Part shown: positions 7,752-58,574 of the stretch, piece after piece
How the letters are laid out: every line of letters starts with the position of its first letter
Position numbering within the stretch: the first letter of the stretch is position 1
NCBI RefSeq assembly: GCF_040954645.1
Contig: NC_092804.1
Span: 147,383,108-147,447,107 of the forward strand
DNA: 64,000 nucleotides
Origin: Diabrotica undecimpunctata
Taxonomy: Eukaryota > Arthropoda > Insecta > Coleoptera > Chrysomelidae
Reading direction: 5' to 3'
Made by a program: the position numbers and the translations under genes
The notes under the pieces: generated by a model
Seen by the model: only the letters and a program-made list of their open reading frames with translations
Told to the model about the DNA's origin: nothing
The model's database searches: none

Positions 7752-9067
7752 CATGTCACGAACACAATTAAAAGCACGAAAACAGAAACAACCACCAAAA
7801 TCACCAGACACAGAATAGGACACTGATTCAGATACACATTCCACATCATCACACACATCACAAGTGTCTATCACCATAGATGGACATGCACCAAGGTCGC
7901 CACAGGAATGGCAGTAGGCTCTTGGAGAGATCTGCCACCAAAACCATGAGGCGGCCAGCATACACTTCACACCAATAGCACAAAAAATACAAAAACATAG
8001 AGGAAATCATCACTCACATCCAAACAAATCAAACAAATAATAACCAATTTCCCCAACCAATCCAATAAACACGAAAACCCTCTCCCTCGCCTCCAACCCG
8101 ACCATCCACACTCATACCCTCACCTACACCAAGAAACCCCGCCACAAAACAGACACTACACATACACATATACTACATCACAATAATCCCGAAGAAATTT
8201 TCTAGCCACAGAAAATTTCTCTTAACCTTCAAAAACCACAATCTCCTTGGAGATATCCCTTTCAGCCTGGAAATGGAACCTTCCGAAAACCAGGCCATCC
8301 TCTACACAACAGGTCCTGTTCCCAACATAAGAGAGTAGAAGGAGGATCTAAAAGCCTTTACAGACCACAGTCACATATCCATATCAAAGCGAAAACCTGC
8401 AGAATACATAGATACAAATAATACAACACCAAGAATACTTACCACACCAAAGAATACACAAAGCAACACATACACAGAACAACACAACTCTACCCTGTCC
8501 AGATCCAAACCAGATATCCTTTACTACGATCCTCCATCCCTTAATCCCAGTAACCACACTCCCTCACAATTACAATACTCACTCTCACCAACAAACAATG
8601 AACCAACACCATCACCCACACACACACCCACACATACACCCACCCCACCTCAACAAACAACACTCTCTTAACCTCAAACCGCAAACACATAACAACCACC
8701 ACTTATCCATAATTACACAATCGAGCATATCCCCTCAGATATCTGCCAGCAGAGACCCTTCTTCCGCCTCATCCAAGACCACAACCTCATCCTCCAATTG
8801 AACTCAATCAAAGTCCTCTCATCCTAAAAGGCAGCCTCTATGCGCGCTACCAAACTCCTAGACATCCACAACATCACGGCAAAACTCCGAAAAATCACTC
8901 GAGATAACACCATCTCACTATCAGCACACAGATCTAGCAAACCCCATAATCAGCACCCCGCTCCAAGTGATCCACAAACCTTTCACTTAGTCATAGCCGG
9001 AGTCGGAAAAAACCTTTCCCAGAAAACCATCGAGGATAACTTATCCGAAAATAGATTTCCTTTAACG
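7752..9067 (+). pseudogene. Gag-like ORF1, N-terminal part
   Basis: A possible start at 7752 ([12 protein letters not shown]) leads into a low-complexity, Pro/Thr/His-rich region with several stops (for example 'TPTHTPTPPQQ' near 8630). Better conserved sequence resumes near 8840, with TKLLDIHNITAKLRKITRD and then a domain reading TFHLVIAGVGKNLSQKTIEDNL. This resembles the region ahead of the zinc knuckles in I/Jockey-type ORF1 proteins. The frame is cut by the RTE insertion and continues at 10090. The product would bind nucleic acid in a retrotransposon particle. The antisense open frame here is a shadow. Confidence 0.55.
9053..9067 (+). repeat. Target-site duplication, left copy
   Basis: AGATTTCCTTTAACG here and again at 10090-10104, flanking the RTE insertion exactly. 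Confidence 0.9.
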
Positions 9068-10064
9068 CATCAGCCTCATAAAAAAGACGTTGCAGGGTTC
9101 AAAAGCCGCAGTCAGAGTAGATGGAGAACTGACTCCCCTGTTTAACATCAACATGGGAGTAAGACAGGGAGATGCCCTATCAACCATGCTATTCAACCTA
9201 GTTCTTGAGGCAGTCATTAGAAAAACCAATATAACCGGCAATATAAACACTAAATCAGTAGAAATTACTGCATATGCAGACGATGTAGCCATCATTAGTA
9301 GGAATAAGCCACGACTAATGAAAGTGTTCAAACAAATTGATCCTGAAGCAAGAAAAAGAGGTCTCAAAATAAACGAAGCAAAAACGAAGTATATGACAGT
9401 CAAAAGAATAACTGACAATGAAAATAATATCACAATAGACAACTATACTATCGAACGAGTGGATGCCCTTACATATCTCCGCACAGATATCAATCAGAAG
9501 AACTCCGTAAGTAGCGAAATTAATGCACGTATTTCTAGCGGGAATCGTACATACTATGCTAATAAAAGATTGATGACATCGAAATTATTAGACAAAAGAA
9601 CCAAAATGACTATCTACAGAACACTGATTAGACCCGTAGTAACCTATGGATGTGAAACTTGGGTAATGACGAAAAAAGATGAAGCCCAACTCAGGACATT
9701 CGAGAGAAAAATACTGAGGAAAGTATATGGCCCGGTACAAGAGGAAGATGGCACATGGAGAATCAGAAGAAACGACGAGGTTAATGAGTTAAATGAAGGT
9801 TATGACATTGTAAGATTTGTAAAAAGTCAAAGACTGTCATGGCTGGAACATGTGCAGAGACAAAACGATGCAAAAACAACAAAGAAAATGTTACAATGGA
9901 AGCCCATAGGAAGGCGAAAAAAAGGAAGGCTTAGAACGAGATGGTTGGATGACGTGGAGGACGACCTGAAAACAATGAACATAAAACAATGGAGAAGAAG
10001 GGCACAAGAGAGATCTGAATGGAAGGACACAGCCAGACAGGCAAAGACCCATCAAGGGTTATGA
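9068..10064 (+). CDS. RTE-like reverse transcriptase, C-terminal 330 residues
   Basis: An uninterrupted frame encodes the last part of an RTE-like RT. Counting from the TTG at 9090, RQGDALSTMLFN precedes an intact AYADD box near residues 62-66. Then come a Lys-rich thumb, VTYGCETWVMT, LSWLEHVQRQ, a basic RRKKGRLRTRWLDD block and the usual terminus AKTHQGL. The fingers, motif A and endonuclease were never copied because of 5' truncation, so it cannot act alone and any start codon is fortuitous. The terminus matches that of the copy at 63608 (AKTHEGL), so both probably belong to one subfamily, different from the GAA-tailed one. Confidence 0.9.
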
Positions 10065-18393: not shown

Positions 18394-19549
18394 TTCAAAT
18401 AAATAGATGAAGTAGCCTACTTCTTTGTCTTTTTTCTCCACGTTTTGACCGAAAAACCCACCACTCTTCGAGTGATCCTTATTTATATTGGATTAACGGT
18501 CGTACTCCTTTTTTCGATTCCGCGATCAGATGAATGAAAATTACTAAGTTCTCGGGAAAAACCACATTGAGAATTTAATATCCGACGGTTCGGCAGCCAT
18601 TTTGAAGCCATTATCAAGAGTGATATGGTTTCGTTCGAGTTCGGGGTCTTAATATGCCTACTCCCCTCACTCGAGACGTACCAGTATCGTGTTCTGTATA
18701 AATACAAGAACCGTCAAACGGCACTCAGACCTCAATCTGCCTCAGTGTCGTGTGACTTGACACTGAGGAGTAGGCAGGTTGTGACCTCAGTACCGAAACT
18801 TAGGTTTACAGGGTGGTCCTTAAGTAATTGTACAAAAAGAAAAAGTAGATTCTACATTTTAAAATATTACGATTTAAGCCAAATTGCTTTAATAAAATGT
18901 TGATATTAAGAAAGATACAGGGTGTTAAAGTGCAAATTTAAAATTTTATTTTTCGCTATAACTTTCATGTTTGTAAATATTTATGCATAAAAATTTAGAA
19001 CTGGGTACTTTTAAATATGAGAAATTATAATTTGATGCACACTTTGATATAGCTGATAGAGGGCGCCACATATGCCACATACGTGACATAAATTTGTACG
19101 TAACTTTTTTGCTCTTCGGGTTACCTGTATTTGTAATAAAAAATATTAAAGATACATTATTTTAACAAAAAAAGGTATACTTATTAATAACTTTAAAACT
19201 CAACAGTTTTCGAGATAATCACATTTTACAAATCAGCTGCATAATTCTGATTTAAGGCAATTACTCCAGGCAACGAAGGAAAAATAGACAAAAACATTAA
19301 TAAATCTAAATTTTTGTATAAAGTAACTTCAACTAAAGTTAATAATTAACGAAATATTAAAAAAATAAATATAGCAGGATGATTAATAATAGGATTTGAC
19401 AAAATAACAGAATAATAGGATTTTGCATCAAACATTTTACGTTTTATGTTAAATTAAAATCATAATCAAAACATTTTGTTTACAAACCGAATTAAGAAAT
19501 ATTTAAACTAAATAACATAATTTATTGTCCAAGTAAGTGTTCGATATAT

Positions 19550-20552: not shown

Positions 20553-21137
20553 TTTCTCCAATTAGACATTTAGCAGCCATAACAAAATTTTTGTAATGTT
20601 ACATTATCATCTTTGAGTTGTTTTAATAAGAATAAACTATGAATTATGCTTATTTACAGGTATTCAGTGCTTTACCACACAAAAATCACAACTAAGAATT
20701 ATGATGCAGCTGGCTTATAAAATGCGATTATCTCGAAAACGGTTAAATTTTGAGGTTACTAACAAGTATACCTTTGCTTTTTAAAAATAATGTATCTTTA
20801 ATATTTTTTAACACAAATAGAGCTAACATAAAGAGCAAAAAAGTTAAGCGCAAATCTATGCCACGCATGTGGCGTATGTGGCGTCCTCTATCAGTTACAT
20901 TAAAGTATGTATAAAACTATAATTTATCCTACTAAATAACATCCAATTATAAATTTTTTGTCTAAAAATATTTACAAACGTAAAATATATAGCGAAAAAG
21001 AAAATTTTAAATTTCCACTTATAACATCCCGTATCTTTCTTAATATCAACATTTTATTAAAGCAAGTTGGCTTAAATCGTAATATTTTAAAGTGCGGAAT
21101 CTACGGTTTCTGTTTGTACAATTACTTAAGGACCACC

Positions 21138-21141
<4 letters not shown>

Positions 21142-21176
<35 letters not shown>
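21142..21176. repeat. (TA)n microsatellite
   Basis: Directly follows the right TA duplication of the mariner-type element. Confidence 0.95.
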
Positions 21177-21185
<9 letters not shown>

Positions 21186-22073
21186 TATTCAAAAAACAAG
21201 TAATTAGATTAAATTAAATATAATATAATATAAAATAAAGATGTTTCTGCGTTATTATCCCACGAAACGAAGCCAAAAAATCACTTTAGAAATCGAAAAA
21301 TAACTGGGCGCTATTTTTTAACTGGAATATCTGGGGGAAGTCAATAGAGAAGGCATATATCTCGTGATTATAGAAACTTTTAGTGCGTCATGACTTTTAA
21401 GCAAAAAAAAACGACTTTGTTCGTTGATTTCAATATTGTGAAAAAACGACGCATTCTAGATAAATACAGATGAATTTTTTGAAAGCACTTGCTCTTGAAA
21501 ATGAGATCTTTTAAATGAAAAAATGTTTATAAACAAAACAGTTATTGCAAATTAAACCCGAAAGTAAGCTTGTTTTTCAATTGTTTATAATTATTAAAAT
21601 CAACAATAAAAACATTTAAAACACATTTCATATAGAATTTTTCATATAAAAATACTTGCACGTCACAATTTATATAAAGTGACGTCACTTATATTTAAAA
21701 TTTCCAGAACGTCAACATTAGAGTTCAAATTTTCCTAACACATCTAATAATACGAAACCCATACGGAACTGCTCGATCTTTCATAGGAGTCAACATGGTA
21801 TAATAATCAGAAAAATAAAAACATTATTATATTGAAAATTTTAGAATTATATTGATTAAATATCCAAAAAGCTTTGTTATTATTAATAATATAAATTTTA
21901 TGAAATAAGTCTTTAAGTCTAATATTCCACAAAATAATAATTTTAATTAAATAAATTAGACAATTGTACGCAACTGATTCAGGAATACTTCAAATTTTAT
22001 TGACAGTTCATCGTGTGGCAAAAGTGTATAAAGTGTTGCCGCTTTTTTAGAGTAAGAATTTTGTTTATGTTAT
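21177..22073. other. AT-rich DNA, nothing recognised
   Basis: No open frame with a recognisable motif and no repeat relation that I could establish. Confidence 0.5.
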
Positions 22074-22077
22074 ATAT

Positions 22078-25000
22078 CGCACCTCTGTTGCAATACCGCC
22101 ATAAGTAAAAATTGGTAAATTTTACAGGAGAGCAGTTTAAAGTTTTACTGTTCAATAAAACAACTTGTATAGAAACTAAAAAACGTATATTGTTTTATTT
22201 TTGTTGATACATTGCATTCTTTATAATCTTATTGTAATTGTAGAAATACAAAACAAGCAGTAACTGATTAAATTATTATAATTTTGAATATTTTAATAAT
22301 TAAATATGAGATGTGGCAGTCTTGCATCACGGAATGGAGTATGTTTTAGTCAGACGTAACTTAAAACCGACGATTGCTACATACAAAACTGCAATAAAGT
22401 TTTGTTTTACACCAGAATAGATTGTCAAAAAAAATTACTAATTTCACAAAATGTTAAATAATTGTAAACGTAATATTAATTATAAAAGTATGAAAGTATA
22501 AAAATTGATTGATAAAAATTAGTATTATAGAATAATTATTAGAAATAGTTAACTATGCCCAATTAATCTATTTTTTATCTACAGTTCAAGCTTTAAGATT
22601 TCAGGCTGTAATAAAAAGGATGGTAGCTCTTTGGTATGACATTGGATTCACAGAGGGAAACTAAATCTTTTTTTTTTTCAGCAGAAATTTTTGGTGGAGT
22701 AACAAAAGCTTTTTTTAGTACAACATTTGAACCACGTGTAGTACGCCGAATAACTACTGTTTTAAAGGACTCGTTTTCATCATACGTATACTTATATTGA
22801 AAACTAGTAGACTGTTCCTTTGTAACACGCAATATTTTTATATCGTTCCATCTTACTTTATTACCACAGACATCGACATTATAATTAGTTCCATATTGTT
22901 GGGATAAATCTTTTAAGTCTACAATATCTGCTGTTTCCATCTCCGTAACAGAATATGGTTGCCCAGTTTTTTTTGCCGTTTGAATTACAGTTACCCACTG
23001 TGCAGGAATGTATATGGGTCCAGATTTGAGGGTTCTTTTCTTTTGTTTTTCTACAACGGAGTGCATGCTGTCTCCTTCATTCTGTCCATGTCCTACAGCG
23101 AAATATTTGTGGGTAATAGATGGTATATCATACTTTCCTACACAAAATATATACAAAGCTAATATCATTCTATTCTTATTCTGACCGATACAGTTATCCG
23201 AATAGAACACAACATCTTGACCACGACTGTGTTCTGATAGAAACTTCATCACAGAACTTCCAATTTCGTTAGATCCTCTATGTGCCACTGACTCACTCCA
23301 AAAATAGCAATAACCGTTCATGGTTCCTACATTATATATTGTAAAATTATAAGAAGATAATCGACGTTTATAATAAAAAATTTAAATTTCCCCAACAGGA
23401 GATGGCAAAACAGCTTGAAGGTCATAACAAGCCATAACGATTTTTCCCTGTTTAGCTTCTAAAGCATCTTTTTCCTTTTCTTTTCGAGAATCATTTTTTA
23501 ATTTTATATGTTGCTCATAATTTTCTTTCAAGTCATCTTTACATTCTGCGTTTTTGTAGACTGTGCAGATCGAGCACTGATCTTTTTTTGGCACGAAAAA
23601 ACCGATATTAAATTCCGTATTAAAAATTTTCGAATATAAATGTATATTTGCTACCTCTCTACCCTCCTTTTCACATCTCTCTCTGTACAATTTATGCATT
23701 TATGCAAGGTTTAGCCCTCCATCGATATATTCCCGCGACGTTTGCGCCCTCAAATAGTGAGACTCTATCCTAGGGATACTATTAATATGATCAAGTATAT
23801 CATTTTTAAGTTCTGCTGCAACTGTTTTGTGATTTTGATGCTTTCCTCTGAAATCGTGTTCAATTATAGAATTTTTACATTTATCTCTAACACTACGAAT
23901 GAACCTGTCACCTATGTCAAATGTGCTCATAAACATTTTTTTGCAGATTCTAATTTTTACACTATTAACAGTAACATAATAAGCTGAGTTTAATTGTCTT
24001 GGTGTACTACAACCTGAAGATCGATACTTCGGTTCAATTGAAACCATACAGTCTTGCAAATAATACCTTTGTTGTGTTACATCTCCAATTTGCCAGAATT
24101 GACACAGTAACATCTGCCTATCAACGTCAGATAATTTATCTCTACACTTCATAGAACATTTGTCATTACATGGTGGTTTCAGAGAACGTGCAGGAACATT
24201 ATTACCTTTTGCGTTAGTATATTCCTTGCCTGTATTTCGAAGTCTTTTTCTAATATTTCGTGTCCACTGATCCTTGTTCAACAGTCGCTTCTTTCCACGT
24301 TTAACACCATCTGAAACAGCAGTCGATAAAGTCAAACAGACAAAGCCAAAAGCTTGTGGATAATAAGATGGCATTGAGTGAAAAATAAAAGTATGAACTT
24401 ACCTGTCTTAACTTGTTCTGATTTTTCTGGTAACAAATTTGTGCTTAACAATTCCTGTTCTGATGTGACAGGTTCCAATGTGTGATCAGCATTTGCTTGG
24501 TTGTCTGAATCAGTATCTGATAACTCCCTTTCTGATTCTAAAGGTCCCAACGTACAATCAACATGTGGATCATCAATCGCTTGATGATCAGAATCAGTAT
24601 TTGCTAACTTTAGTTCTGGTGATAATATAGGTTTCCATAACATCTCAGCGTATGTCTCAACTACATCGCTATCTGGGATATCTCTGTCGTTCGATGTAAA
24701 AATAGGCACCCCCAATTCTGTTTCTGTTGTGATTCCTATATCTAAATCCACACAATTACAATCAGAGGAGGGACAATCTTGAATTACATCTAATAATACC
24801 TTAGAGCTATTATTAATATTTTCTATGATCACATCCTGCAAACCAGAAATGAATAAGAATTAATAACACAATTAATAACACAAACGCGTTTCAAATAGAT
24901 ACCGGGTTAGCGTAATATAAAAATGTATACTAAAACACCTTACAAACAAGTAATTCACAAATAACGGCAGGTAGTAAAAGATTTTTAAAATTTTTGTTAG

Positions 25001-25509
25001 GTTAGAAACACTTACATACCTCTACACTATTATTAAGGCTCCTATATTCATCAGTTTCTTGTAAAACAAGATTTAACATTATTTTTCCTCTTGAATATCC
25101 ACTCATTTTTTTCTAAAATCACTCTACTTTACTAAACAATATGTTATAAAACACCGAAAAACACTAAAATAAAGTACACGTGCACGCTAAAAAAACGGAA
25201 ATGAGACTGAATACAATCCAAACGACTGATGCAATACCGCCATAAGTAAAATGTGGCGGCATTGTAGTCGACTAGACTGATATCTCCTTGTGCAATACTG
25301 CCGCAATTCATAATGTGGTAGTATTGCAGGTTGTGATTTTAATATTTTTAAAATGTCATAAAGACACTTTATATTATACTGTGGACATTTATTGAATTTT
25401 CATTTGTGGCAGTTTTGCAGCACATAAATTGACGTTTTTGTAGATGTTCTAGACCAAAAAACCGAAATTCAATTTTTCGGAGTTGTGGCGGTATTGCAAC
25501 AGAGGTGCG
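22078..25509 (-). mobile_element. TIR-bounded DNA transposon carrying an SDN...GQNKN protein gene
   Basis: A 3,432-bp unit with 24-bp perfect terminal inverted repeats beginning CGCACCTCTGTTGCAATACC (22078-22101 and 25486-25509). Immediate flanks are ATAT at 22074-22077 and 25510-25513, consistent with a 4-bp duplication in AT-rich DNA. The inner part of the TIR (TGGCGGTATTGCA-like) recurs as subterminal copies: inverted pairs at 25231-25266 and 25291-25329, and singles near 22313 and 25404. The only gene inside is the three-exon minus-strand gene at 25106-22593. I infer that this gene encodes the transposase. A second, diverged unit lies at 49673-52945. Confidence 0.8.
22593..25106 (-). pseudogene. 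Three-exon gene, SDN...GQNKN (DUF7869-like) protein; likely transposase
   Basis: Exons read on the minus strand: 25106-25020, 24835-24403 and 24310-22593. The donors are GAG|GTATGTAAG and CAG|GTAAGT and the acceptors are TTTGCAG and TTTCAG. The exons total 2,238 nt, a whole number of codons (745 residues). Exon 2 is acidic. Exon 3 has a Cys cluster (PCNDKCSMKCRDKL), a CSICTVYKNAEC pair, CYDLQAVLPSP, VVFYSDNCIGQNKNR and GHGQNEGDSMHSVVEK. The acidic residues in DLQ, SDN and EGD are spaced about 75 and 42 codons, fitting a DDD/E RNase H-like core. Two TAA stops (23700-23702 and 23382-23384) lie in frame without any frameshift, so this copy is recently dead. Family recognition is from memory; transposase function is inferred from the TIRs. 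Confidence 0.75.
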
Positions 25510-25513
25510 ATAT

Positions 25514-26521
25514 TATTATTATTTATTGTAATATATTAATAAATTGTATTTATAAATACATATTAAATTTAGATTAATAGCTTTAAAAACTAATTTTTTT
25601 TGTGCAGTGTGATTGTGCTATGCCCCAAATAAATAAATAGTCTGTAGAAAGCTGATAAGCTTTCAACTAAGATAGATTATTTTGACCAAGAAATAATGAC
25701 GGGATGTTTTTACTATTAAAGCCCTAAAAGAGGTAAGTTTAAAATTTAGAATATATAATTTTGTATTAAAATGTTTTTTAATGGATTTTAGTGTGTTGCA
25801 GTAGTCTTAAAACTAAGTGTATTTACTGTTAATATAATAGATTGACAAATAGTTGACATTTTAAAAATTCCTCATTTACTAACAACTATTCTGATGTTTT
25901 GGCAACGCTGTGGGGTTCTGACGTCGTAGATCTTGAATGGCGTGCAAGCATTTTTATATGAAAAATGCTATAGTGAGTCTTTATGTTGTTACCGTATTTC
26001 CGTATTTCCGAGAAGGTTACAATAGGTCAAGTAGTTTTTAAACAATTATATTTGTTTATCTCGTTTGAGAGAACTAAGGTCATTTTCAAATGGCTGTACA
26101 GGTACTTTGTAAATACTTAGAATGTTTGTTTTTTGGTCTAATTATCTTTATTTTATAAGGTCTCACATTTTCATCCTTTTCAAAAACTATAATAATTTTT
26201 AATTGTTTACTTACCAATAATTGATGCAGAATGAAGTTTTATTACCATTATGTTGGCAATATCCCTAACTATGCCACGCAGTATATATTCTAACTTTAAC
26301 TTTAACAGTTATTTGACGTTTTTCTTAAAATTTCTATGAAATGTTTAATAATATTCTGAATAATTCGTAAAAGTAGTGGTGGTGTTTAAGATAAACATTT
26401 TATATAAATTTTCTACAAACTTTAGGCAGATGCACAGACATAAATAATTACCTACATAATACTCATGCGAAACAAAGAAACGACATCTAGTACCTAAAGT
26501 AATACCTACTGTTATACTCAC
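25514..26521. other. AT-rich DNA, probably intron or flank of the receptor gene
   Basis: No exon-like open frame was recognised. The sequence lies downstream of the guanylate cyclase exon's donor site, so at least part is expected to be intron of that gene. Confidence 0.45.
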
Positions 26522-28196: not shown

Positions 28197-29938
28197 AGTG
28201 ACAGATGCGAAGAGATTGAACAGTTGGTAGAGAAACATGATAACTTAAACCTTCATCAAAAGATTAGGGAAATAACAGGCACTAATATTAAAAAAAAATT
28301 AAACATACTGCTGGATAAAAATGGCAAAATAATTATAGACGTCAGTGAAAGGCTTAAAAGATGGCAGGAATATATTCAAAAGCTATTTAAAGACAAACGG
28401 ACTAAGATAGTACTAGAGCAGGAAAAGTTCGACAACGGCCCAGAAATAACAGAAGATGAGGTATTAGAGGCAATAAAGCGAACAAAGAACAACAAGGCAA
28501 CAGGTCCTGACGAAATACCTGTAGACATAATACGGTTAATAGAAGAACAGCAAATTGAAATATTTGTCGACTCATTCAATACACTATAAAGTACAGGAAT
28601 CATTCCCAGAGATTGGCTGATGTCAACATTCATAACACTACCAAAAAAACCAAATGCAAAAGAATGTTAAGACCACTGGATAATAAAGTTTAATGAGTCA
28701 TACGCTCAAAATATTTTTAAAAATTATACACCTGAGAATACACAACTAACTTGAGCAGGACATAAGTGACACACAATTTGGATTAAAAAATGCACTGGGA
28801 ACAAGGCAAGCTCTGTTCGCTGTGAATGTACTTGTGCAAAGGTGCATGGATGTTAATCAGTCAGTATATATGTGTTTCTTGGATTACAACAAAGCCTTCG
28901 ATAAGGTCAGGCATAACCGTCTTATCGAATTACTTGAAAAGAAAAACTTAGATATGAGAGACATCAGGATCATTAGCGCTATCCATTATAATCAGATCGC
29001 TGTGGTAAAAGAGAACAACGTCTTTTCAAATGAAATACAGATTGAGGGAGGCGTCAGGCAGGGCTGTGTCCTGTCTCCTACTTTGTTTAATTTGTATTCA
29101 GAAGAAATAATCCAGGAAGCACTAGAAGAACTAATTATGGGAATAAAAGTAAATGGCCGACCAATCAATAATATACGGTTTGAAGCCGACACTATTTTAT
29201 TAGCGGAATGTCTTGAGGATTTACAACAAATGGTTGACAGAGTGGTAGAAGTCAGTGAAGAAAACGGACTGTCCCTAAACACAAAAAAGACACAATTTAT
29301 GGTAATTACAAAAACCCAACAGCGCCAAGAAAACATAACAATAGATGGAGAACAAATTAAAAAAGTTGAAAAATATAAATATTTGAGTACAATAATTAAC
29401 GAAAATAATGAGTACACAGAAGAGATTAAGGCAAGAAATTCTTTCAACAAACTGCAAAAAGTACTCTGCAGCAGGGACATTTTAATTTCTTTAAAGATAA
29501 CACTTCTGAGATGCTACGTGTTCTCCGTATTATTTTATGGGTTAGAGGCTTGGACTTTAAAGAAAGATGTTTCGCACAGATTGCAAGCCTTCGAGTTATG
29601 GGCCTACAGAAGGATATTAAGAATAAGTTGGGTGGATAGAGTCACGAATGTCGAGGTGTTGAGAAGAATGGGAAAAGATAAAGAGGTTTTAAATACAATT
29701 AAAGTCAGAAAACTGCAATATCTGAGACATGTCATGAGGGGTTAGCATTATAACTTGTTGCAATTAATAATGCAAGGAAGAATATAGGGTAGAAGAAGTC
29801 GCGGAAGAAGATGCATCTCTTGGTTAAATAATTTGAGAGCTTGGTTTAACTGCACTTCTGCTGACCTCTTTAGAGCAGCGGCGTCGAAAGTGCGAATTGC
29901 CATGATGGTTGCCAACCTTCTTAGAGAAGATGGCACGT
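28197..29938 (+). pseudogene. Reverse transcriptase of the RTE element, catalytic Asp lost
   Basis: 28185-28589 carries the linker and early fingers (NNKATGPDEIPVDI). A frame-broken stretch follows. An open frame at 28822-29745 contains motif A (CFLDYNKAFDKV), motif B (GGVRQGCVLSPTLFN), the thumb and SVLFYGLEAWTL. The catalytic box reads FEAD where relatives have YADD or FADD. Two substitutions change Ala to Glu and the first Asp to Ala, so activity must be lost. Frame-broken C-terminal sequence (FRAAASKVRIAMMVANLL) runs to the GAA tail. Confidence 0.85.
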
Positions 29939-32548: not shown

Positions 32549-32787
32549 GGTGTTTTACCGCACAAATATCACAACTAAGAACGATTAATAAGAATTAAGA
32601 ATTATATGCAGCTGATTTATAAAATGAGATTATCTCAAAAACTGTTAAGTTTTGAAGTTATTAAGAAGTATACCTTTTTTTGTCAAAATAATGTATCTTT
32701 AATATTTCTTTACAAAAGTACTGCTTAGTTGAAGAGCAGAAAGCGCAAATTTATGCCACGAATGTAGCATATGTGGTGCACCCTATC

Positions 32788-32795
32788 AGCTACAT
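32788..32795 (+). repeat. 8-bp target duplication of the hAT element, left copy
   Basis: AGCTACAT, repeated at 34058-34065. Confidence 0.85.
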
Positions 32796-34057
32796 CAGCG
32801 ATACTCAAAGTGTGTTCCGCGGAACCCTAGGGTTCCGCGATACCCTTGTAGGGGTTCCGCGAGAATTTAGAAAAAAATTCAAAACACGTCTCTCTGATCG
32901 ACTGTTCTGATGCGGCATAGTACGATTCACGAGGCGCAGTCGAACTTAGTTGCCTTGTACAATTTTACTATGCCTGCCACTGCCCATATCTCTTGTGAGC
33001 GCGCAGTCCTCGACGACCGCGCCTCTACATTTGACACTTTGACACCTGCTATAAAAATGTTTATACAAACAAAGTGTTTATTGTTGTACTGCTGTATTCT
33101 AATTGTATCAGTTTTGTACATTTCTTCTTTGGACTAAACTGTTCTGTAGTAACGGTCGTGAGTTATTTTGTTGTTTTTAACAAAGAAGAATGGAACGTTG
33201 GCTTAAAGTTGGCGAATGTTCGAAAGCAGTACGCGCAGAGTATACAGCAATTACTGATCAAGACGATTATGCAACAATGTCAAGTTCCACGGTTTCAAAG
33301 GCGAAAAAAAAAGGAAGTATGATGAATTATATATCAGTTTCGGATTTTTTAATTCCAATGGCTCAATTCTCTGCATCCTATGTAGTAAACTGTTTCCTAA
33401 TAGTTCCATGGCACCTGCCAAATTGCGCCGACATTTAGAAACTGTGCACCCCGAGTCTAAAGATAAGAATAAAGAATTTTTTCTACGTAAGAACAGTTAT
33501 TGGAAAGTCAAAAAACTATGATACATGTAACTCAAACTATCAATGAAAAGGTCACAGAGGCATCATATTTAGTTAGCTATCGCATTGCACAAGCAAGTGA
33601 TTCACAATATCGTTGAAAATTCAATAAAACCATGTGTGTTATACATAACAAAATGTATGCTTGATGAAAAATCTGCAAAGTTATTTTCTACTGTGCCGCT
33701 ATGGAACGATACTGTTTCACGGCGAATTCATGATTCGAAATCATGAAAACACCACAAAACACCACCCAAAAAATCACAAAATACCGCAATAGACTGGACG
33801 CCGAACCTGATATGAGACCTTAAATGTCCTCTATCAACCAATTGATGAAAAATAAAAAACAGTCCCATACTTCCCATTAGTTAGAGTTTTCTTATTTAAT
33901 ATCTTCTATTAATATACTTGTTATGTAAGCAAGTACTAAGTTACTGTTACATTGTACTAATAATACACTTTTAAAAACTACTGTTTTATTGTAGGGTTCC
34001 GTCAAGTATTTCGCTTTCCAAAAGGGTTCCGCCACCAAAAAAGATTGAGAACCGCTG
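32796..34057 (+). mobile_element. hAT DNA transposon, internally deleted
   Basis: A 1,262-bp unit whose ends read CAGCGATACTCAA and, inverted, CAGCGGTTCTCAA, the usual hAT terminal pattern. An exact 8-bp duplication flanks it. Subterminal GGTTCCGC motifs cluster at both ends (32817-32865 and 33995-34032). It keeps the BED-finger part of a transposase but not the catalytic core. Confidence 0.9.
33190..33760 (+). pseudogene. ZBED5-like hAT transposase, N-terminal part
   Basis: Starts MERWLKVGECSKAVR (33190). After a frame shift comes a BED-type zinc finger reading CSKLFPNSSMAPAKLRRHL followed by VHPESKDKNKEFF. Later segments read VTEASYLVSYRIAQASDS and KSAKLFSTVPLWNDTVSRR. These are the blocks of the ZBED5/SCAND3-like branch of hAT transposases. 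The catalytic DDE region and the dimerisation domain are deleted, so the copy is non-autonomous and decayed. Confidence 0.75.
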
Positions 34058-41679: not shown

Positions 41680-42178
41680 TTTTCCTTAATGGAAAAATAT
41701 TTTGGGAAAGCGATGTTGGCTGACTGGTTTTATATTTACGGACAAACCTTGTAATAAAAATAACTAGCAGATGATTAGATCCATAAGGTTCTTGTAGAGT
41801 ATTTCAATTAAAATGAGAGGCAATATTTTGGAAACAAATGGTTAAGTCGGCAGCAGAAGGTTTTTTGGAAATAGCGAGAGTGGGAGACAGATCATTTAAA
41901 TATTCTAAATTACAGAATTTTATATCATCTGAAAAATCTTTACTTAATCTTTTATTGACTTCGCAGCCCCACGCCAAGTTGTGTGCATTAAAATCGCCTC
42001 CTATTATAAATGGTTTCTGAATATTTTTTTAAAAATTGATCTATTGTTGAAAATTTTGTTTCTAGATTCATTATATAGAGAAATTATATGTCAAGCTTTC
42101 TCTAAAGGTGAAATTTTTATTGAAATTTACTTATATGTATACGAATACCTATTTCGACAAATTAGTTCTTCACATTTT
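41680..42178 (-). pseudogene. Endonuclease of element B, C-terminal half
   Basis: Minus strand: ECELICRNRYSYTYK-like sequence near 42165, then KPFIIGGDFNAHNLAWG, a middle block and DLTICFQNIASHFNWNTL...GSNHLLVIFI. GDFNAHN and the final 'S(D/N)H' are endonuclease active-site blocks (Asp changed to Asn in the last). The domain is split by an RTE insertion at 42179-44147 and resumes at 44163. Confidence 0.75.
42164..42178 (+). repeat. Target-site duplication, left copy
   Basis: AGTTCTTCACATTTT, repeated exactly at 44148-44162. Confidence 0.92.
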
Positions 42179-44147
42179 GGAATTTTGGATACATACAGGA
42201 AAGAAATGAAGCGCATAAGAATTACATACTCAGACGTACTAGAGAGAGAAAAACAGAACATGAGAACAAAAGACGAAGAGCAGATAAACTGTGCAGGCAG
42301 CAAAAGAGAAAGTATGAAAACCAACGGATACTAAACATAGAGAGAGAGTTTAAGGAAAACGAAACACGTAGCGCATACCAATTTATCAAACATCTAAGAC
42401 AAGGATACAAACCGAGGACTAGCCTCTGCAAAAATAAGAAAGGTGAAATCATTAGCGATATGGACGAAATTAAGAGAACCTGGATGACATATTTTAAGGA
42501 ATTACTAAACAAAGGGACACAACTACCATTACAACAACAGTGGCAGCAGCAGGCACGACAGGAGGTACAACAACAAGAACTGGGGAAAGATGGAGAAGAA
42601 AATGAATTAACTAGACCCCCAACGCTAGAGGAGGTCCAAACGGCAATCCACATACAAAAAAGCCATAAAGCACCGGGAATAGATAAAATACCGGCAGAAC
42701 TATTCAAGCAAGGAGGAAGGAATTTGACACAACAGATGTACCAGCTAATACGAGAGATATGGATAGAAGAAGAAATTCCCCAACAATGGAAGAAAAGTAT
42801 AATATGCCCTATTCATAAAAAAGGAGACACACTGTTGTGTCAGAATTATAGAGGCATCTCTTTACTTTGTTCGGGATACAAAATACTCACAAACATCATT
42901 AATCGAAGACTACAACCTCTCACGGAAAAAATCATCGGGGAATATCAAGCAGGGTTTAGGCAAAATAGATCTACCATTGACCAACTATTTACAGTTAAAC
43001 AAATACTAGCCAAAGCATGGGAATATGACATGGACGTTTACAATCTCTTTGTAGATTTTAAACAAGCCTATGATTCAATAGATAGAACAATTCTACCTAA
43101 TATACTGAAAGAATTTGGCATACCATAAAAATTAATACGGCTAGTGCAAATGACAATGACAGAAACAGAAGCACAGGTATGTATTCAGGGACAGATTACT
43201 GATGCGTTTACGATAACGCAAGGACTGAAACAAGGCGACGGACTAGCTCCAACGCTCTTTAATCTTGTTCTGGAATATGTAATTAGACGGTTGACGGTGA
43301 GCGGAAATAACATACTTACAAACAAGTCTACCCAATTAGCAGCATACGCAGATGACATAAACATAATGAGCAGAACAATGAATGCAGCGGAAGAAACCTA
43401 CGTTGAGTTGAAACAGAGTGCAGAAGCAGTAGGGCTAGCAATAAATACAAATAAAACAAAACTACTCATACAAACCAGATCAAATAGACCGGTGCAACAA
43501 CACTTTATTGACCATATAGAACATGTAAATAGATTTACATACCTAGGAATGGATCTGGTCGCAAGCAATGAAGAAGAACCGAAAATAAATAGAAGGCTTG
43601 TGCTGGCAAATAAAGCCTATTTCGCGATGGGCCACATATTCAAATCGCGAGACGTACACCGGAAAACAAAACTCCGGGTCTATAAAACAATAATCAGGCC
43701 CATAGTAAGTTATGGTTGCGAAACATGGGTGGTGACACAGAAATCTGCCAATGCATTAGATGTGTTTGAAAGAAAAATATTACGTAGGATCCTGGGCCCA
43801 ATAAGTGAAAACAACAACTGGCGAATTAGGTACAATAGAGAAATATACGAGCAATATACCGAACCACCTCTAGCACAACATACTAAACTGCAGAGATTAC
43901 GATGGGCAGGGCACGTGGTCCGCATGCATGAGAATAGAATCCCCAGAAAATTATTAAATGCAAGAATGCAGGGAAAAAGACCTGTTGGAAGACCTAAAAA
44001 GAGATGGGAAGATGAAGTCGATGAGGATGCCAGGAACTGCCTGGGAACGCGTTCATGGAAAAGAACAGCGGTAAATAGAGATGGTTGGAGAAGCCTGTTG
44101 AAGGAGGCCAAGGCCCGATTTGGGCTGTAGCGCCATTGGATGGATGG
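42179..44147 (+). mobile_element. RTE-like insertion with (GGAT)n tail in element B
   Basis: A 1,969-bp insertion with a perfect 15-bp duplication and a short GGATGGATGG tail (44138-44147). It is 5'-truncated in the linker and almost intact from there. Confidence 0.92.
42203..44130 (+). pseudogene. RTE-like RT, one TAA stop
   Basis: A single frame of about 640 codons from roughly 42203: a basic linker (RRTRERKTEHENKRRRADK), SHKAPGIDKIPAELFKQG, HKKGDTLLCQNYRGISLLC, motif A FVDFKQAYDSID, motif B GLKQGDGLAPTLFN, an intact AAYADD box, the thumb (NRFTYLGMDLV), VSYGCETWVV, LRWAGHVVRM and a terminus KARFGL. Only the TAA at 43126-43128 interrupts it, between motifs A and B. The endonuclease is missing through 5' truncation. 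A Gln-rich stretch near 42540-42590 is unusual. The minus-strand open frames are shadows. Confidence 0.9.
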
Positions 44148-46220: not shown

Positions 46221-47497
46221 TTCTTCTTCTTATGGTGCCGTGCACCTATAGTGCGTTGGCGAATTATCTTAAGGTCAGACGTCTGTCTTTTGCGGCATGC
46301 AAAAGTTCGCCAGTGTTAGTTACGACTGTCCAGTTCTTTATATTTCGCAGCCACGACATTTGTTTGCGACCTACTCCTCTCTTGCCCTCAATCTTTTCTT
46401 GGATAATTAGTTGAGGGATTGCGTATTTTTCCCCTCTCAGGATGTGGCCCAGGTATCCAATCTTTCGTGCCTTGATCAAGCTGAGCAATTCTCTCTCAGT
46501 ATTTGCTCTTCTTAGGACTTCCTCGTTTCTCACCCTATCTGTCCATGGTATGCGGAACATTCTTTGCAAGGTCCACATTTCGAAGGCTTCCAACTTGTTA
46601 ATGGAAGATATTTTCAACGTCCATGTCTCCATGCCGTATAACAATATGGACCATACATAGCACTTAACCATTCTGTAACGGAGATTGAAGGAAAGATTGC
46701 GGTTACAAAGTAGCGGTTTAAATTTAAGAAAAGCTTGTCTTGCTTGTTCGGTACGGCATTTTATTTCTTGTTGAGGATCCCATTGGTCATTCACCATCAT
46801 TCCCAAGTATTTGAATGTTTTCACTTGCTCGATTGGAGCGTTATCTACGTGCAGTTGTACTCTGAAAAATGCGCCCTTTCTTATTGTCATGCATTTTGTT
46901 TTTCCAGCATTTATCTTCAGGCCATATGTTTTTCCTGTGGTGTTTATTTTATTTAGTATCAACTGCATATCATGTTCGTTATCTGTGATTATTGCGGTGT
47001 CGTCAGCGTAACGAATGTTATTTATCGGGTACCCGTTGACCTTTATACCACAATCAGTGCCTTCAAGTGCCTCTGCAAAAACATTCTCCACATAGAGGTT
47101 GAACAGCATAGGAGACAAAATACACCCCTGTCGCACCCCTCGTAAAATTTCGAATTCCTCTGTGTTTGTTGATTTGTTTAGCCTCACACGTGCCTTTTGA
47201 TTCCAATAGAGATTCTGGATAACTCTTATATCTTTCTCATCGATATCAGTATTGTGTAGCATTTTTATTATTTCATCGTGTTTTACGGTGTCAAAAGCTT
47301 TTTCGTAGTCGAGGAATGTGATGACTATATCTTTTCGTTGGTCCATACAGTTTTGTACCAGGGTATTCAAGCAGAATGATGCTTCGCGCGTCCCGAGTCC
47401 CTTCTTGAAACCAAATTGTGTCTCGCCGCTCAGCTCTTCTAGTTTTCTGAACATTCTTGTGTGGAGTATGCGAAGAAATATTTTAAGTAAATGACTC
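46221..47497 (-). mobile_element. RTE copy E, GAA-tailed, youngest of the nest
   Basis: A 1,277-bp minus-strand insertion with an 11-bp duplication and an (AAG)n tail (cttcttctt at 46221). It sits inside copy C, so it inserted after C. Confidence 0.92.
46264..47497 (-). CDS. RTE-like reverse transcriptase, intact 410-residue frame
   Basis: An uninterrupted frame begins in the fingers (FGFKKGLGTREASF). It has motif A FLDYEKAFD (about residues 62-70), motif B RQGCILSP (123-130), an intact RYADD box (163-167), the thumb (VKTFKYLGMMV), SILLYGMETWTL and the C-terminal LGHILRGEKYAIPQLI...MSWLRNIKNW. Only the final few residues look shifted relative to relatives (ending DRRLTLR). The endonuclease and first part of the fingers are missing, so the copy is not autonomous. 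The long antisense open frames at 46264-47011 are shadows. This is the best-preserved GAA-tailed RT in the window. Confidence 0.9.
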
Positions 47498-47983
47498 AAG
47501 AGAAACCCAGGATGACGTAAAATATCCTGGCTAAGAAATTTGAGAGAGTTATTATTGAGAGGTAGAATTATTCAGAAGCGCGGCCAATAAAATTAAAATA
47601 GCGATGATGATTTCCAACCTCCAATAGAAGAAGGAACCTGAAGAAGAATAAGTAGCCGTCATGTATGGCTCGTTTTTAAAGGATTTCATGCATCAAGGAT
47701 TAAATAGTGATATTGTGTGTTTTCTAATAATTGTCGTTCGATCAGATTATCAGTGAGCGTGAGGTCAATTACAGTTGTGATTTTTTTAGATGTTAAACCA
47801 CATTGACAGTTGTTTTAGACTTAGTAAAATAACAAAAATGCCAGGAAATACTATTTCTGTAGAAAATCAACATTGTGTTTGTTCTGATCAAGTTATTTTA
47901 TAAGAGTGTATATTAACAGAACACCTAGTAGAACGCTTAACTCTTAACTGGCGTCGTGGTTTATTCTGCCGTTAACTGCGTCC

Positions 47984-49262: not shown

Positions 49263-50057
49263 CATTGACCCCAACGCCTGTTTACAGGATGAAGGATGCC
49301 ATATTGTTACAAACATGGTTTAGTCATACGTGTTTTTTCGAACGATCCATATTTTTTGTAATTTTTTTATTAAACGTTCAAATCGATTTAAATTGCAGGC
49401 CAATTCTCATTTTCGTTTAAATAGTTTTGTAGAGCTTTTTAGTTTGTAAAAACCTTTTAATTTAAAACAACAAAATTATTTTGGTAAAAAATTAAGCGAA
49501 TTATGGCCAAAACATGATTTTTGACGTTTTATGGAATTTTAAGGTTATGTGTCAATATTTTGGGCTAACATTTGGTGAATCTTCTTTTTTTGACATTTCA
49601 AACAATACCCCAAAATATTCAATTTTTGAAATATGGAATTGCCTTCCCTTTCCTTCCCTTGGTTAATTTTAAAATTGAATCGGTCATTTCAAAAAGTGCA
49701 TAAGTCCAAAATTTTCAGAAACTAACATTTTCTGCGGAATAGACTCCTCTAAGATAAACTCACGTTGTGTGCAAAAACGACACCAGTCCGTAAATAATCT
49801 GTCGAAATACTCTACAACTAAAATTGAAGGTCTGTGCAAAAACAACGCGAGTTCAGGGCGTATGCAGTTTTTGTTGTGAATTTGTAAACATAATTTCTAA
49901 GAATTTGGTTGGTAGCCGAGATCGTATGATTGTTAAGTCGTTTATGTTACCATGTTTTTATTTCAGTTTTTATTAATGTCTTGTGTTGTGAGGTTAAGTG
50001 CTTGACAACGATTAATTTAAATTTATTGGTTTTTTGTTATTTAAACAAAGAAATAAT

Positions 50058-52560
50058 ATGCCTACTTCATCTGACGATAGTGTACATGAACATTTACCCT
50101 TAAAAAAGAGAAAACCCAATCCAGATAAATACAGAAGGAATGTCAGTAATGCCGTAATGCCAAAGTTAAAGGTTTACAACACACTAACTCTAAAGGAAAT
50201 ATTGTACCAGCTAGATCTCTAGGACCTAAATGCACGTAAGTAATAATTTATGCTATTATGTGGTTTACAGAGGTTTGTTTATAACTGTTTTTATTAGCAA
50301 TTTTAATATTTCATTAATAAAACCATATTTTTTTCGCAATAAATAAACAAACTACAATAATTTAATATTGTAGTAAAGGTTCTTATTTTGCAAAATTTAA
50401 AAATATAAACTTAGTGTCAATTCAATAAACACTTGTTCCAAGGATAAAAATCTGAGTTTTTTGTAATATTAATGAGAGGTTTAATATCACTATACAGGAA
50501 TTTATTAGCTACAAACTTATTTTATGTTATAGTGTTCTAGAAATTTCACCGTTTCTTAAAAATCTCTTTTCTTTTTAGATGCAGAGCAAAATATTTCCAA
50601 AAATTTTCTGAAGAAGAATTGGCTTTTTGTGTTGACACACTAAACAACTTTTCCACCAAAAATGAGCAAGATATATTCTTGCAGCAAAATATCGAAAAGG
50701 TGCCTGTTCAGAGACACCGTGCCCGAAAAGAAGAAGCAGTGTTGAAAGAATTTCAAGTCACCTATCATGTTCCAACTCGAAAGAAGAACGAAGAGGTCTA
50801 TAAAAAGGCTTTTACTTTGATTTATGGGATATCAGAAGGTCGTGTAACAAGAATTTGCAGCTTGCTTCTTAAGGCCATGATCGACAGGCGAGTAAAACTG
50901 CGGTTTTGTGGCTCGTCGGTAAAGCTCGTCAGTGTATCATTGCAATACCGCGGTTTTATATACCTACGAGCCTGGCTCGCGGCTCGTCAGTTTGTTTTAT
51001 TTTTTACTTGGCTCGTCATTTAAAACGCGCGTGTATCACTACTGGTGAGCAAAACCGGCAGTTTTCAGCGACCGTTGAAGTGAAAAGATCAGTTTTTAAT
51101 CATGGATATGCGTACTCTCAGCCACGACTTTTTATTAGAATTTATATATTGTTGACGAGAATGTGTTTGTTTATGGAAATGTACATCGCCAGAATACAAA
51201 CACAAAACAACTCGACTTAACGCATATGTTAAACATTTAAATACTCAACGTCTAGGACGTCTCCGCTTTTTTTTTGTAATTTCGTAGTATGCTATAGCGA
51301 GGTAATATAAAACTTCACTTTCAGTTGAACACGACATGTTAGCTGTGGACGGTTGACAATGGCTGTTTTGCTCGCTAGTCGATCAGCACTAACGAGCCGC
51401 GAGTAAAACCGTCGTTCTTAAAACCGCGGTATTATGGCTCGCTCGTCGATCACCAACTTTAAGTATTTGACCCCCTGTGATAGGCGAGGATAACACCCGA
51501 AATGGAATACCAAATAGATGTCAAAACCATGCATAGTCTTTTTAAAGAAAAACATCCAAATGTGGATGTTAAGAATAAATACTACGCAAAATATTTTAAA
51601 TTCTTTGCGTTTTGGTGGACCCCAAGTTGATACCTTTATTAAGTGCGAAGAATTGGTTACAAAAATCAACAGCTAGTTCCTAGGAGCACATGCCAAACGT
51701 ACCGCAGAAGCTAAACTAGCGGTTCATAAAAGAAGATAAATTTTGTAAGAGATATTTGTGAAAATTGAGAGGCCGCAGTTGTTCTCACGTTCGATTTTAT
51801 GCAAAATCTTCCTCTGGCCTGTATATCGATACGAAAGATATTTTATTTGCGTCAACTATAGGTGAACTGCTTCGGTACAAAAAATGTTAAAACCAAGGAA
51901 TCTGTGTTTTACGTTTATCAAGAAGGTCAAGCCAATAAAGGCGCTAATGAATTTTGTTCCATGTTGTCCCATTATTTTGAAACTTTTTTCCCCGATAACG
52001 TACAAGAAGTATTTTTGTTCAGCGACAACTCTCCTGGACAAAATAAGAACCATACGATGATCCGGTTTTTGTGCTCATTGACGGATACAGACAGATTTTT
52101 CAAAATAATCCATTACTTTCCAATCAGAGGACATTCATTTTCGCCGAATGATCGAGATCTTGGGCTGCTGAAATCAAAAATTAGGAAGCATGACACAATT
52201 TATGTGCCAGACCAATATTATTGCCTTATGGCTGGAGCTGGGACAAATTTTTCCGTTTTTGGGTGGCTAACATATTACAAGCGAAACTGCCTCTCAAATG
52301 AAAGCCTAGGTTCAAAGGTACAAAAGCAACAAAACGCAGCTTCTCTCCATCGTCGTTTGTGTCATTTCAATACGATAATCATGCAAAAGGTACAGTTGTG
52401 ACTCACGATTTTATTGACGGTTTCGTTAGTCATACGTTTCGTCTTTCCAAAACCAAAGGCCCCGTGTTGCTACCAACACATTAGCTTACCCAAATAATGC
52501 TGTAGCCATTAATCCCAAAAAAATTGCAAATATCAAGCAAGTTTAAAACAGCATTTTAGA
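50058..52560 (+). pseudogene. SDN...GQNKN (DUF7869-like) protein gene, copy 2, decayed
   Basis: Probable exon 1 at 50058-50235 (MPTSSDDSVHEHLPLKKRK onward, frameshifted before VPARSLGPKC) ends at GCAC|GTAAGT. Exon 2 starts at 50579 after CTTTTTAG, with CRAKYFQKFSEEELAFCVDT and YKKAFTLIYGISEGRVTRIC. After the MITE comes MHSLFKEKHPNVDVKNKYYA, CEELVTKINS, VVLTFDFMQNLPL, a TAG at 51859-51861, VFLFSDNSPGQNKNHT, IRGHSFSPNDRDLGLLKSK and a C-terminal INPKKIANIKQV...YKPFYEKIFQWP. Asp codons at 51793, 52024 and 52150 are 77 and 42 codons apart, close to copy 1. Stops and shifts show that it is dead. Confidence 0.75.
50878..51452. mobile_element. MITE-like insert with TGATCGAC... inverted ends
   Basis: A 575-bp insert in the coding region. 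Its ends, TGATCGACAGGCGAG (50878) and the inverse TGATCGACGAGCGAG (51452), match at 13 of 15 positions. Internal GGCTCG, CCGCGGT and CTCGTC motifs recur near both ends. A possible CCA duplication (50875-50877, 51453-51455) flanks it. No transposase is present and the superfamily is unknown. Confidence 0.65.
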
Positions 52561-52945
52561 AAAATATAAACCATTTTACGAGAAAATTTTCCAGTGGCCT
52601 ACCAGTATGAATTTGATTTTGTTCCATAATATTATTATTTAATAATTACCAGTTTTTGTAGTTACTATACTTTCGAAATAAAAAAATAAATGGTTGTATT
52701 TCTGTTTTTATTTTTCGTTTCATGCAAAAATAGCATTAGTCCAATATTTTAAAAGTCATTTTTCAAAAAACCTTTATTTTTTTCGAGACGATTTGTAGAT
52801 CAATATGATAAGAAACACAATTACAATATAACTTTGGATTTTAAGGTCATCAATTTCATCCATCTTTCAACTATTTAGTTTTTTTGCTCTCCTGTAAAAT
52901 TAGGAATATGTGACTTGTGTTGTTTTTGAAATGACCGATTCAATT

Positions 52946-55188: not shown

Positions 55189-57735
55189 TCAAGCATGCAA
55201 GCCTTTGTGTGCTACTGAGCAATCGAATCGCCCCGGACTGTTTTTGTTCCACCACGCCACTGAACCATAAGTTATCATGGGCCTTATAACCCTTGTGTAC
55301 AACCAGAGGTTCATTTTAAGATTTAACCCCCAATTCTTACCACACATTCGTCTACATGTGTTCAGGGCCATAGTGGCCTTCTGTGTGACTTTATGAATGT
55401 GTGCATTCCATGTCAGCCTCTGGTCGAATATTACACCTAAGTACTTGGCCTGACTTGTGAATGGGATTTCTACTCCCTTGAGCACTAGTGGCTGTAAGCC
55501 TTGCAGTGCTCTTTTTCTGGTGAAGGGAACAACAGATGTTTTTTTAGGGTTAACCTTCAGGCCTTCTTCCTCACACCAGCTGTCCACCACCCTCAGAGCG
55601 ACTTAAAGTCTCTCCGAAATTATTTTGGTAAAGCGTCCTCGGACTACAATTACCAAATCGTCCGCATAACCCAGACAGTAAAAACCCTCCCTGGACAGTG
55701 TATTAAGTAGGTCGTCCATAAGCGTAGCCCACAGTAATGGGAATAAAACTCCACCTTGTGGGCAGTCGCTTCCTGCCTTCGCTTCAATAGTGGCTTCACC
55801 TAACGAGGACACAATGATCCTGTTTGTTAAGGTCGCCTTTGTCCACTAGCATATGAAGGCAGGAACTCCTCTTCTTTTAAGCGCGTCCGTTACAGACTCG
55901 AAGGAGACGTTATTAAACGCTCCCTCCACGTCCAGAAACGTCGCGACCGCTATCTCCTTGTCATCTAGCTACTTTGAGAGCAGTCTGTTAAGATCATCCA
56001 GCGCCAAGTCAGTTGACTTTCCTGGCTGGTATGCATATTGGCGATCGCTAAGTGGATTCTCCATCAGCACGTCGTCCCTAATATACCTGTCTATCAATCT
56101 TTCCAGCGTTTTTGCTAGGAAAGAGGATAGACTTATTGGTCTGTATGACTTGGGGGTCTGGTCCATTACCCTACCAACCTTGGGGATATATGTGACTTTC
56201 ACCCTTCGCCATGCGGTTGGAATATATCTCCATGCCAAACTAGCTTTGAAGATCTTTGTTAGATGCGGGATGATTACATCCTGTCCCTTCTGTAGCAAGG
56301 CTGGATAAATCCCGTCCATTCCAGGTGATTTGTATGGCTGGAATTTATTGATGGCCCACCTGACTTTTTCCGGTCTCGTGATGTCGGTAGCTAACTTCTA
56401 GTCCGCCTTAGTAGGCCTTCTGGGATGAGCTACCTCTACCGAAGGATTATTGTCAATGGATGAGCTGGAAAAATTTACCTTGGTGAGCATTATTAAGCTT
56501 TCCTCCAGGGTTTCTACATACTTTTCGTCCTCTTTCTTCAAGAGGCCGACCTGATTCGCAATACTATCCTTAGCCAGGACCTTGTGGATTCTGGAACATG
56601 CGGGAGCCTCTTCGACTTCCTCGCAGAACTTTCGCCACGAGTCTCTTTTGGCTTTTCGGATCTCCTTATTATATTGCGTCAGTTTTTCTCTATAAATGGC
56701 CCAGTCCTGGTTGAATTTGGCTTTATTGAATAGCCTTCTTACATCTGCCCTAAGCTTTTGTAAGTGTTCATTCCACCAGGGTGTGTTTTTCTTTCCTTTC
56801 TTTTCTCTCTCTGGACAATTCTCCTGGTAAGCGACCAGAACAGCTCCCCTCACCGTTTCGACTGTCAGTTCGAGATCTTCCGTATTTTTTATGGTGCCGA
56901 TTCCTCCCTCAAGAGACTTCTCGAGTGAGCCTCTATAGCCTTCCCAATCCGTCTCTCTCGGGTTCCTGAACCTTGCCACCATTCGAGTCGAAGTAATTAA
57001 ATCAAATCGAATGTGCCTATGGTCGGAACATGAAGGTTCCTCTGACACATGCCAATTCTTTATAGTATCGTACGTTTTTTCACTGCAAAGTGTTACATCT
57101 AAGACTTCTTTGCGCGTGGCTGTAACGAAGGTAGGTTTATTTCCTATATTGGCTATTTCTAAACCCATGCTTAAGATGAACTGTAGTAAAGACTCACCTC
57201 GACTGTTGATGTTCGTACTCTCCCATGCCAGATGGTGGGCATTGGCATCACATCCCAGTATTAGATGAAGGTTCTCCCTTCGGCTGTAGGTTATAACGTC
57301 CTCTACTATGCCTGGGCGGAAGACCTTCTCTCCAGCGAAGTAGGCAGAACAGACCAACCATCTTTTACTACCTTCCTCGGTGAAAGCGGTTAAAATACCT
57401 GTAACAAAGTCTCTGGAGCAAAGATCCGGAATCAGTGTACAGTTTACTTCGTTACCATATACAATGCATGCTCGAGGTGTCTCTCCTTTCGCATCGTATA
57501 GTAACTTACCTTGTTGCGGCTTCAAGCCTGCAATATTCCCTCCGTGGAGCCATGGTTCCTGCAGTAGGGCCAAGTCCAGGCCTTCCATGTCAAACCTTCT
57601 GCACAAAACCGCCGACGCAGCTTTAGCATGATGAAGGTTGACCTGCAGGACCTTTACTCTGCCTTCCTCTAAACTGAAGGCTAACTTTCGGGTTTTCCCG
57701 TGTCCTCTACCCCTTCCATGGGAGCGGCCACCCGC
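55189..57735 (-). pseudogene. R1-like non-LTR ORF2 (endonuclease and RT)
   Basis: One reading frame runs from 57735 to 55189 with four stops and no frameshift: TAG at 56398, 55969 and 55846, TAA at 55603. The endonuclease has VLQVNLHHAKAAS, LALLQEPWL, LGCDANAHHLAWES, LDVTLCS and SDHRHIRF. The RT has YKSPGMDGIYPALL, KSYRPISLSSFLAKTLE, FLDVEGAFNNV (motif A), CPQGGVLFPLLW, the GYADDLVIV box and the thumb KYLGVIFDQRLTW. It ends at MITYGSVAWW, so the 3' part of ORF2 is missing. Gene order and motifs fit the R1/Loa group. The plus-strand open frames here are shadows. Confidence 0.88.
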
Positions 57736-58350: not shown

Positions 58351-58574
58351 ACCTCACTTGCAGTAAGGTGTACAATTTTTGCGTCCACGACTTAAAACGA
58401 GCTAAGGTCGTTGAGATTGCAAGAAACGGGCATCTTGCACACTTAAATATATTGAAACGTTACCTTTAATTATTGAGAATATGTAATTGCAGATAATAGA
58501 ATAAGAGTGCTCCTATTAAGACAATTGTAGAGTCAATAAATCACCATTTATTGACTCGACAATGATTGAGTGTC
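58351..58574. other. No gene recognised
   Basis: Includes a small inverted motif 'gagtcaataaa...tttattgactc' at 58531-58556. Nothing else. Confidence 0.5.

Follow-up and report, generated by a model that had tools for sequence, protein, structure and literature searches.

The stretch of Diabrotica undecimpunctata DNA analyzed here (the window; 64,000 nt at C2:147383108-147447107 of the 1.74-Gb assembly) contains a genuine DNA transposon at positions 22078-25509, bounded by terminal inverted repeats (TIRs) and encoding a protein of the DUF7869 family. The unit most probably represents a recently multiplied family of Sola elements, resembling Sola2, in which the DUF7869 protein serves as a transposase with three catalytic aspartates (DDD). 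As a transposon the unit is ordinary; the useful part is the functional assignment of DUF7869, which we regard as likely. An earlier note, made from the letters of the window alone, had described a candidate autonomous transposon and inferred that its uncharacterized protein family is a transposase. Its view of the unit as a transposon is borne out by genome copies with the same TIR, by 4-bp duplications and by one empty site, but the copy in the window is not autonomous.

The unit and its copies in the beetle genome

The TIR CGCACCTCTGTTGCAATACCGCCA is a perfect 24-bp repeat, present on the plus strand at 22078-22101 and on the minus strand at 25486-25509, exactly as first described. Allowing up to three mismatches, it matches twice within the window and not once across 100 shuffles, and the ATAT reported on both sides is also there (Table 1). 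Three minus-strand exons lie between the ends and total 2238 bases, or 746 codons including the stop. The exon 2/3 junction is supported by P0002, an annotated D. undecimpunctata protein with 99% identity over 50% of the query. The gene product (P0001) matches PF25273 (DUF7869) with an E of 1.1e-8 and 35.3 bits against a cut-off of 26, so that the family named in the earlier note was the right one. Its three-exon model stands in the GT/AG splice sites and the codon sum, but not in the open frame of 745 residues: exon 3 contains two in-frame TAA stops, corresponding to X203 and X309 of P0001. The window copy is therefore broken and inactive. The element also carries eight copies of a 13-bp motif, TGCAATACCGCCA, with up to two mismatches, two of these being the TIR copies that served to define the motif; 300 order-1 Markov resamples gave a mean of 0.03 and a maximum of 1. 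The copies are possible transposase-binding sites.

A genome search with the TIR (up to three mismatches) returned 27 matches, 20 of them perfect, six with one mismatch and one with two, while the reversed TIR gave none in the same search. Eighteen of the matches pair into nine two-ended copies on several chromosomes (L049-L057, with L051 being the window copy), and ATAT is found on both flanks of all nine, in line with the many copies flanked by 4-bp duplications that the earlier note had proposed to look for. Five copies measure 3397-3432 bp and four 2464-2485 bp. The other four long copies are 97.6-99.6% identical to that in the window. The four short copies share the same internal deletion, and a single derivative thus seems to have multiplied at several sites, as would be expected under mobilization in trans. 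The flanks of the nine one-ended matches, assessed by eye, read ATAT in four cases, AAAT in three and TATT in two; two of the AAAT cases lie in the same flanking sequence, and both TATT cases likewise share one. Under the window exon model none of six long copies (L051 and L054-L058) has a fully open frame. Their internal stops number 2, 2, 21, 1, 58 and 2, respectively, where 58 may partly be an alignment effect, and the length is not divisible by three in half of them.

ATAT is palindromic, so the window family alone cannot separate a target-site duplication (TSD) from the TIR. Copy L056 is inserted in a repeat, and its flanks were joined through a single ATAT into an empty-site query of 240 bases. 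All 40 places scored, out of 396 first-look candidates, run across the junction at 90-92% identity, and 37 of them match over the entire 240 bases. Three aligned empty sites show four ungapped bases opposite ATAT, with a 6-base gap elsewhere. These four bases read AAAG, and the actual target copy of L056 must therefore have differed. The earlier note had suggested seeking empty sites in relatives; here one was found for one copy, at repeat copies in the same genome, and it indicates that the four flanking bases are a TSD.

Three further DUF7869 groups, picked by recurrent open-frame lengths of 619, 578 and 539 residues and sampled at three copies each, provide more evidence on this point. All nine copies have TIRs unlike those of the window family (30-34 bp, one copy measured per group) and exact 4-bp duplications: ATAT three times in the first group, AATT, ATAT and AATT in the second, and ATGT, AAAT and AAAT in the third. 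Since AAAT and ATGT are not palindromes, the duplication is real. When the left flank of one copy was crossed with the right flank of another, only two of six pairs matched in group 578 and two of six in group 539, so the match between the two flanks belongs to the individual copy. Group 619 has ATAT throughout. Exact duplications are present in all 18 fetched two-ended beetle copies from four families, or 19 of 19 with a second unit in the window. The sequence conforms to AWWT at 17 of the 18 sites (18 of 19 with the second unit), the exception being ATGT. The empty site, together with the sites of the other families that read AAAT, ATGT or AATT, excludes ATAT as a part of the TIR.

DUF7869 is abundant in this genome. 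The search gave 8,786 first-look candidates, and all 150 that were scored exceed the cut-off, which puts the number of such places at 150 at least. The groups with identical open-frame lengths are recently multiplied families, and those with near-identical copies and frames of constant length are candidate active elements.

Table 1. Positions of the DUF7869 transposon at 22078-25509, its gene and predicted sites, and of the second unit, in window coordinates
Feature	Position	Strand	Details
Left TSD copy, ATAT	22074..22077	.	Flank comparison; empty-site test on sister copy L056
Left TIR	22078..22101	+	24 bp perfect; 27 bp with 1 mismatch
Left-end TGCAATACCGCCA copies	22089..22326	.	At 22089 (within TIR) and 22314; possible transposase-binding sites
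Exon 3, transposase gene	22593..24310	-	DUF7869 catalytic core; in-frame TAA at 23700-23702 and 23382-23384
Predicted catalytic Asp 3, D413	23070..23072	-	Codon; third residue of helix 411-429, motif GHxQNEGD; model and alignment
Predicted catalytic Asp 2, D371	23196..23198	-	Codon; end of strand before QNKN helix, motif YSDNCxGQNKN; model and alignment
Predicted catalytic Asp 1, D296	23421..23423	-	Codon; end of strand beta1; model and alignment
Segment absent from the four 2.46-2.49 kb copies	24069..25022	.	Identical end points; element positions 1992-2945
Exon 2, transposase gene	24403..24835	-	GT/AG; exon 2/3 junction agrees with P0002
Exon 1, transposase gene	25020..25106	-	ATG at 25106; GT/AG splice sites
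Right-end TGCAATACCGCCA cluster	25230..25498	.	At 25230, 25254, 25291, 25316, 25407 and 25486 (within TIR)
Right TIR	25486..25509	-	Pairs with left TIR
Right TSD copy, ATAT	25510..25513	.	Flank comparison
Second, more decayed DUF7869 transposon	49677..52941	+	TIR GAATCGGTCATTTCAAAAA, 19 bp perfect; start GAATCGGTCATTTC
Remnant DUF7869 frame of second unit	51862..52398	+	PF25273 E 3.5e-7, 30.4 bits against cut-off 26

Predicted fold and relatives of the DUF7869 protein

The AF2 model of the DUF7869 protein, aligned with VIA-align, has an RNase H/integrase-like predicted fold, and the Mos1 transposase is among the structural matches listed. Foldseek returned no match to the model in PDB or BFVD at E ≤ 0.001; the evidence for the fold comes from the second look with VIA-align. 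Searched by sequence, the C-terminal frame of the window gene likewise had no PDB match at E ≤ 1. Three aspartates (D296, D371 and D413 of P0001) are invariant in all 13 bacterial and animal proteins aligned, the third acid being D rather than E. This invariance and the model point to these residues as the DDD triad of a predicted transposase active site. Together with the TIRs found around both beetle and bacterial DUF7869 genes, the fold and triad agree with the transposase function that the earlier note had proposed for the family.

Pfam lists DUF7869 as a domain of unknown function. The window protein detects 756 relatives at E ≤ 0.001, and DUF7869 proteins occur in insects, sponges, a coral, molluscs and bacteria. 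The names displayed for the 120 relatives listed for this query are uncharacterized, hypothetical or unnamed; "transposase" is not among the displayed names of 240 relatives listed, most of which are nameless and whose names are shortened. No relative was confirmed in viral contigs, and a bacterial query had no match among plasmids and phages.

The bacterial records comprise 11 DUF7869 loci, one of them insect-like and suspect: it is a fragment on a contig from the bin of a Gemmataceae bacterium (L001:2-367), likely a eukaryotic contamination or chimaera. All six bacterial proteins scanned pass the PF25273 cut-off. Eight bacterial units are delimited by TIRs, with AWWT on 15 of their 16 sides. 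Among 297 genomes drawn evenly from the phylum to which Desulfocicer belongs, the domain appears in a single one, Desulfocicer itself, so carriers are rare in this phylum. The bacterial relatives offer intron-free systems for the biochemistry of the group; we know of no study of its mechanism.

Proposed mechanism and alternative explanations

The transposase, made from spliced mRNA, would bind the TIRs and perhaps the sub-terminal 13-bp motifs. The element would then be cut out by the RNase H/integrase-type active site predicted at D296, D371 and D413, and its ends joined to the target at A-W-W-T sites cut with a 4-bp stagger, ATAT being preferred by the window family. Gap repair would yield the 4-bp duplications. 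We infer the mobilization in trans, the excision implied by cut-and-paste, the DNA binding and the chemistry. If DUF7869 proteins are transposases, transposon copies would account for many of the "genes" annotated in insects and other animals.

One difficulty for this scheme comes from bacteria. Identical 4-mers are found on both flanks of three of the eight bacterial units; the other five (L002, L007, L009, L010 and L011) have unequal flanks, with AWWT on nearly every side, which would be odd for simple cut-and-paste transposition.

Two alternatives can be set against this reading. First, the DUF7869 elements could form their own DDD transposon superfamily, parallel to Sola and yet unnamed, though we consider this unlikely. 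Such a superfamily would be ancient, with members in animals, fungi and bacteria and an enormous expansion in one beetle. Its preference for AWWT targets would have been kept all the way from bacteria to insects, and the often unequal bacterial flanks would hint at an unusual joining step. The word DUF7869 was not found in the full text of the literature searched, and none of five bacterial proteins has an NCBIfam match near the cut-off or to a transposase model. Moreover, the beetle elements start with CGCAC (window family) and GAATC or GAAGC (other families), and differ from most bacterial ones, whose left ends read GGGG, GAGG or GGGA in seven of eight cases and GGCG in one. Against a separate superfamily, the elements agree with the Sola features given in the available portions of PMC10741241, where Sola termini are themselves described as very variable, and their AWWT duplications equal those of Sola2 of amoebae in the accessible text of PMC3627910.

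Second, and less probable still, the enzyme could be a replicative DDD transposase, of a copy-out or circle-forming kind, rather than a cut-and-paste one. The unequal bacterial flanks speak for this. No excision event was seen, and no search was made for one. The equal flanks of all 19 two-ended beetle copies argue against replicative transposition, and cut-and-paste is the usual mode of eukaryotic TIR elements built in this way.

The remaining explanations can be ruled out. The window ends can be read as CG|CACCTC...GAGGTG|CG, which would suit an EnSpm/CACTA-like element starting with CAC and making a 2-bp CG duplication, but the CG is constant in nine of nine two-ended copies at unlike sites and is thus part of the element, and the aligned empty sites have four bases at the ATAT position without CG. 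A domesticated gene, or a host gene that inverted repeats flank by chance, has the spliced structure in its favor and nothing further, and is eliminated by the copies with identical ends and TSDs on several chromosomes, the empty site and the 150 of 150 scored DUF7869 places over the cut-off.

Other repeats and comparison with known transposons

The second unit in the window, at 49677-52941, is flanked by AATT at 49673-49676 and 52942-52945. A 23-base perfect inverted repeat, the only one over the scan threshold in its flanks, resolves into the TIR GAATCGGTCATTTCAAAAA and the AATT. Outside the first unit, a 35-nt inverted repeat (21631-21665 and 25938-25972) was considered as the real transposon end and rejected because of its position beyond the unit and its complementarity of only 91%; the DUF7869 unit may sit inside an older palindromic element roughly 0.9 kb in length. 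Two inverted segments of ~440 bases each (18807-19245 and 20701-21142; 85% identity) and an additional stretch at 32587-32797 probably belong to another repeat family. Remnants of non-LTR (long terminal repeat) retrotransposons, with RVT_1, Exo_endo_phos_2 and DUF4780 frames, occur at 9066-10064, 28750-29745, 42166-44130, 46264-47571 and 56398-58353, the part at 42166-43128 having been judged by eye.

Among known systems, mariner/Tc1 elements, to which the DD34D transposase Mos1 belongs, share with DUF7869 a catalytic core of the RNase H type that carries three aspartates. They differ in their TA target, as opposed to the 4-bp AWWT seen here, and in lacking the large extra domains of the DUF7869 protein; no mariner family was detected when three frames of the window gene were scanned against Pfam. 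EnSpm/CACTA elements have CAC...GTG ends and TSDs of 2-3 bp; they resemble the window element in having a spliced gene and, in plant members, clustered sub-terminal repeats near the ends. The window element departs from them in its 4-bp TSD and its CGCAC start. A 4-bp duplication is also common to piggyBac, which targets TTAA, and to Kolobok. The Kolobok target is likewise TTAA according to the available part of PMC9587614, as opposed to AWWT here, and TTAA is found at none of the 19 beetle sites.

The best agreement is with Sola. This superfamily was reportedly established by Bao et al. in 2009, with the divisions Sola1, Sola2 and Sola3. Sola2 termini are GRG, to be compared with CGCACC in the window family, which differs, with GAATC or GAAGC in the other beetle families and with GGGG, GAGG or GGGA in most of the bacterial units. 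In the portions of PMC10741241 at hand, Sola elements are described as having a DDD transposase, a 4-bp TSD, TIRs of 11-1124 bp and lengths of mostly 2-9 kb, and as occurring in bacteria and metazoans. The DUF7869 elements share the predicted transposase type, TSD length, TIRs and host range, and the beetle TIRs of 27-34 bp (one copy each of four families) and element sizes of 2.25-3.43 kb lie within the Sola ranges. Sola2 of amoebae, as far as the available text of PMC3627910 describes it, makes AWWT duplications including ATAT, as do the DUF7869 elements at 18 of the 19 beetle sites. The Sola-like affinity guessed from the 4-bp duplication in the earlier note accords with both descriptions, and the window family is probably a new Sola family, matched by description.
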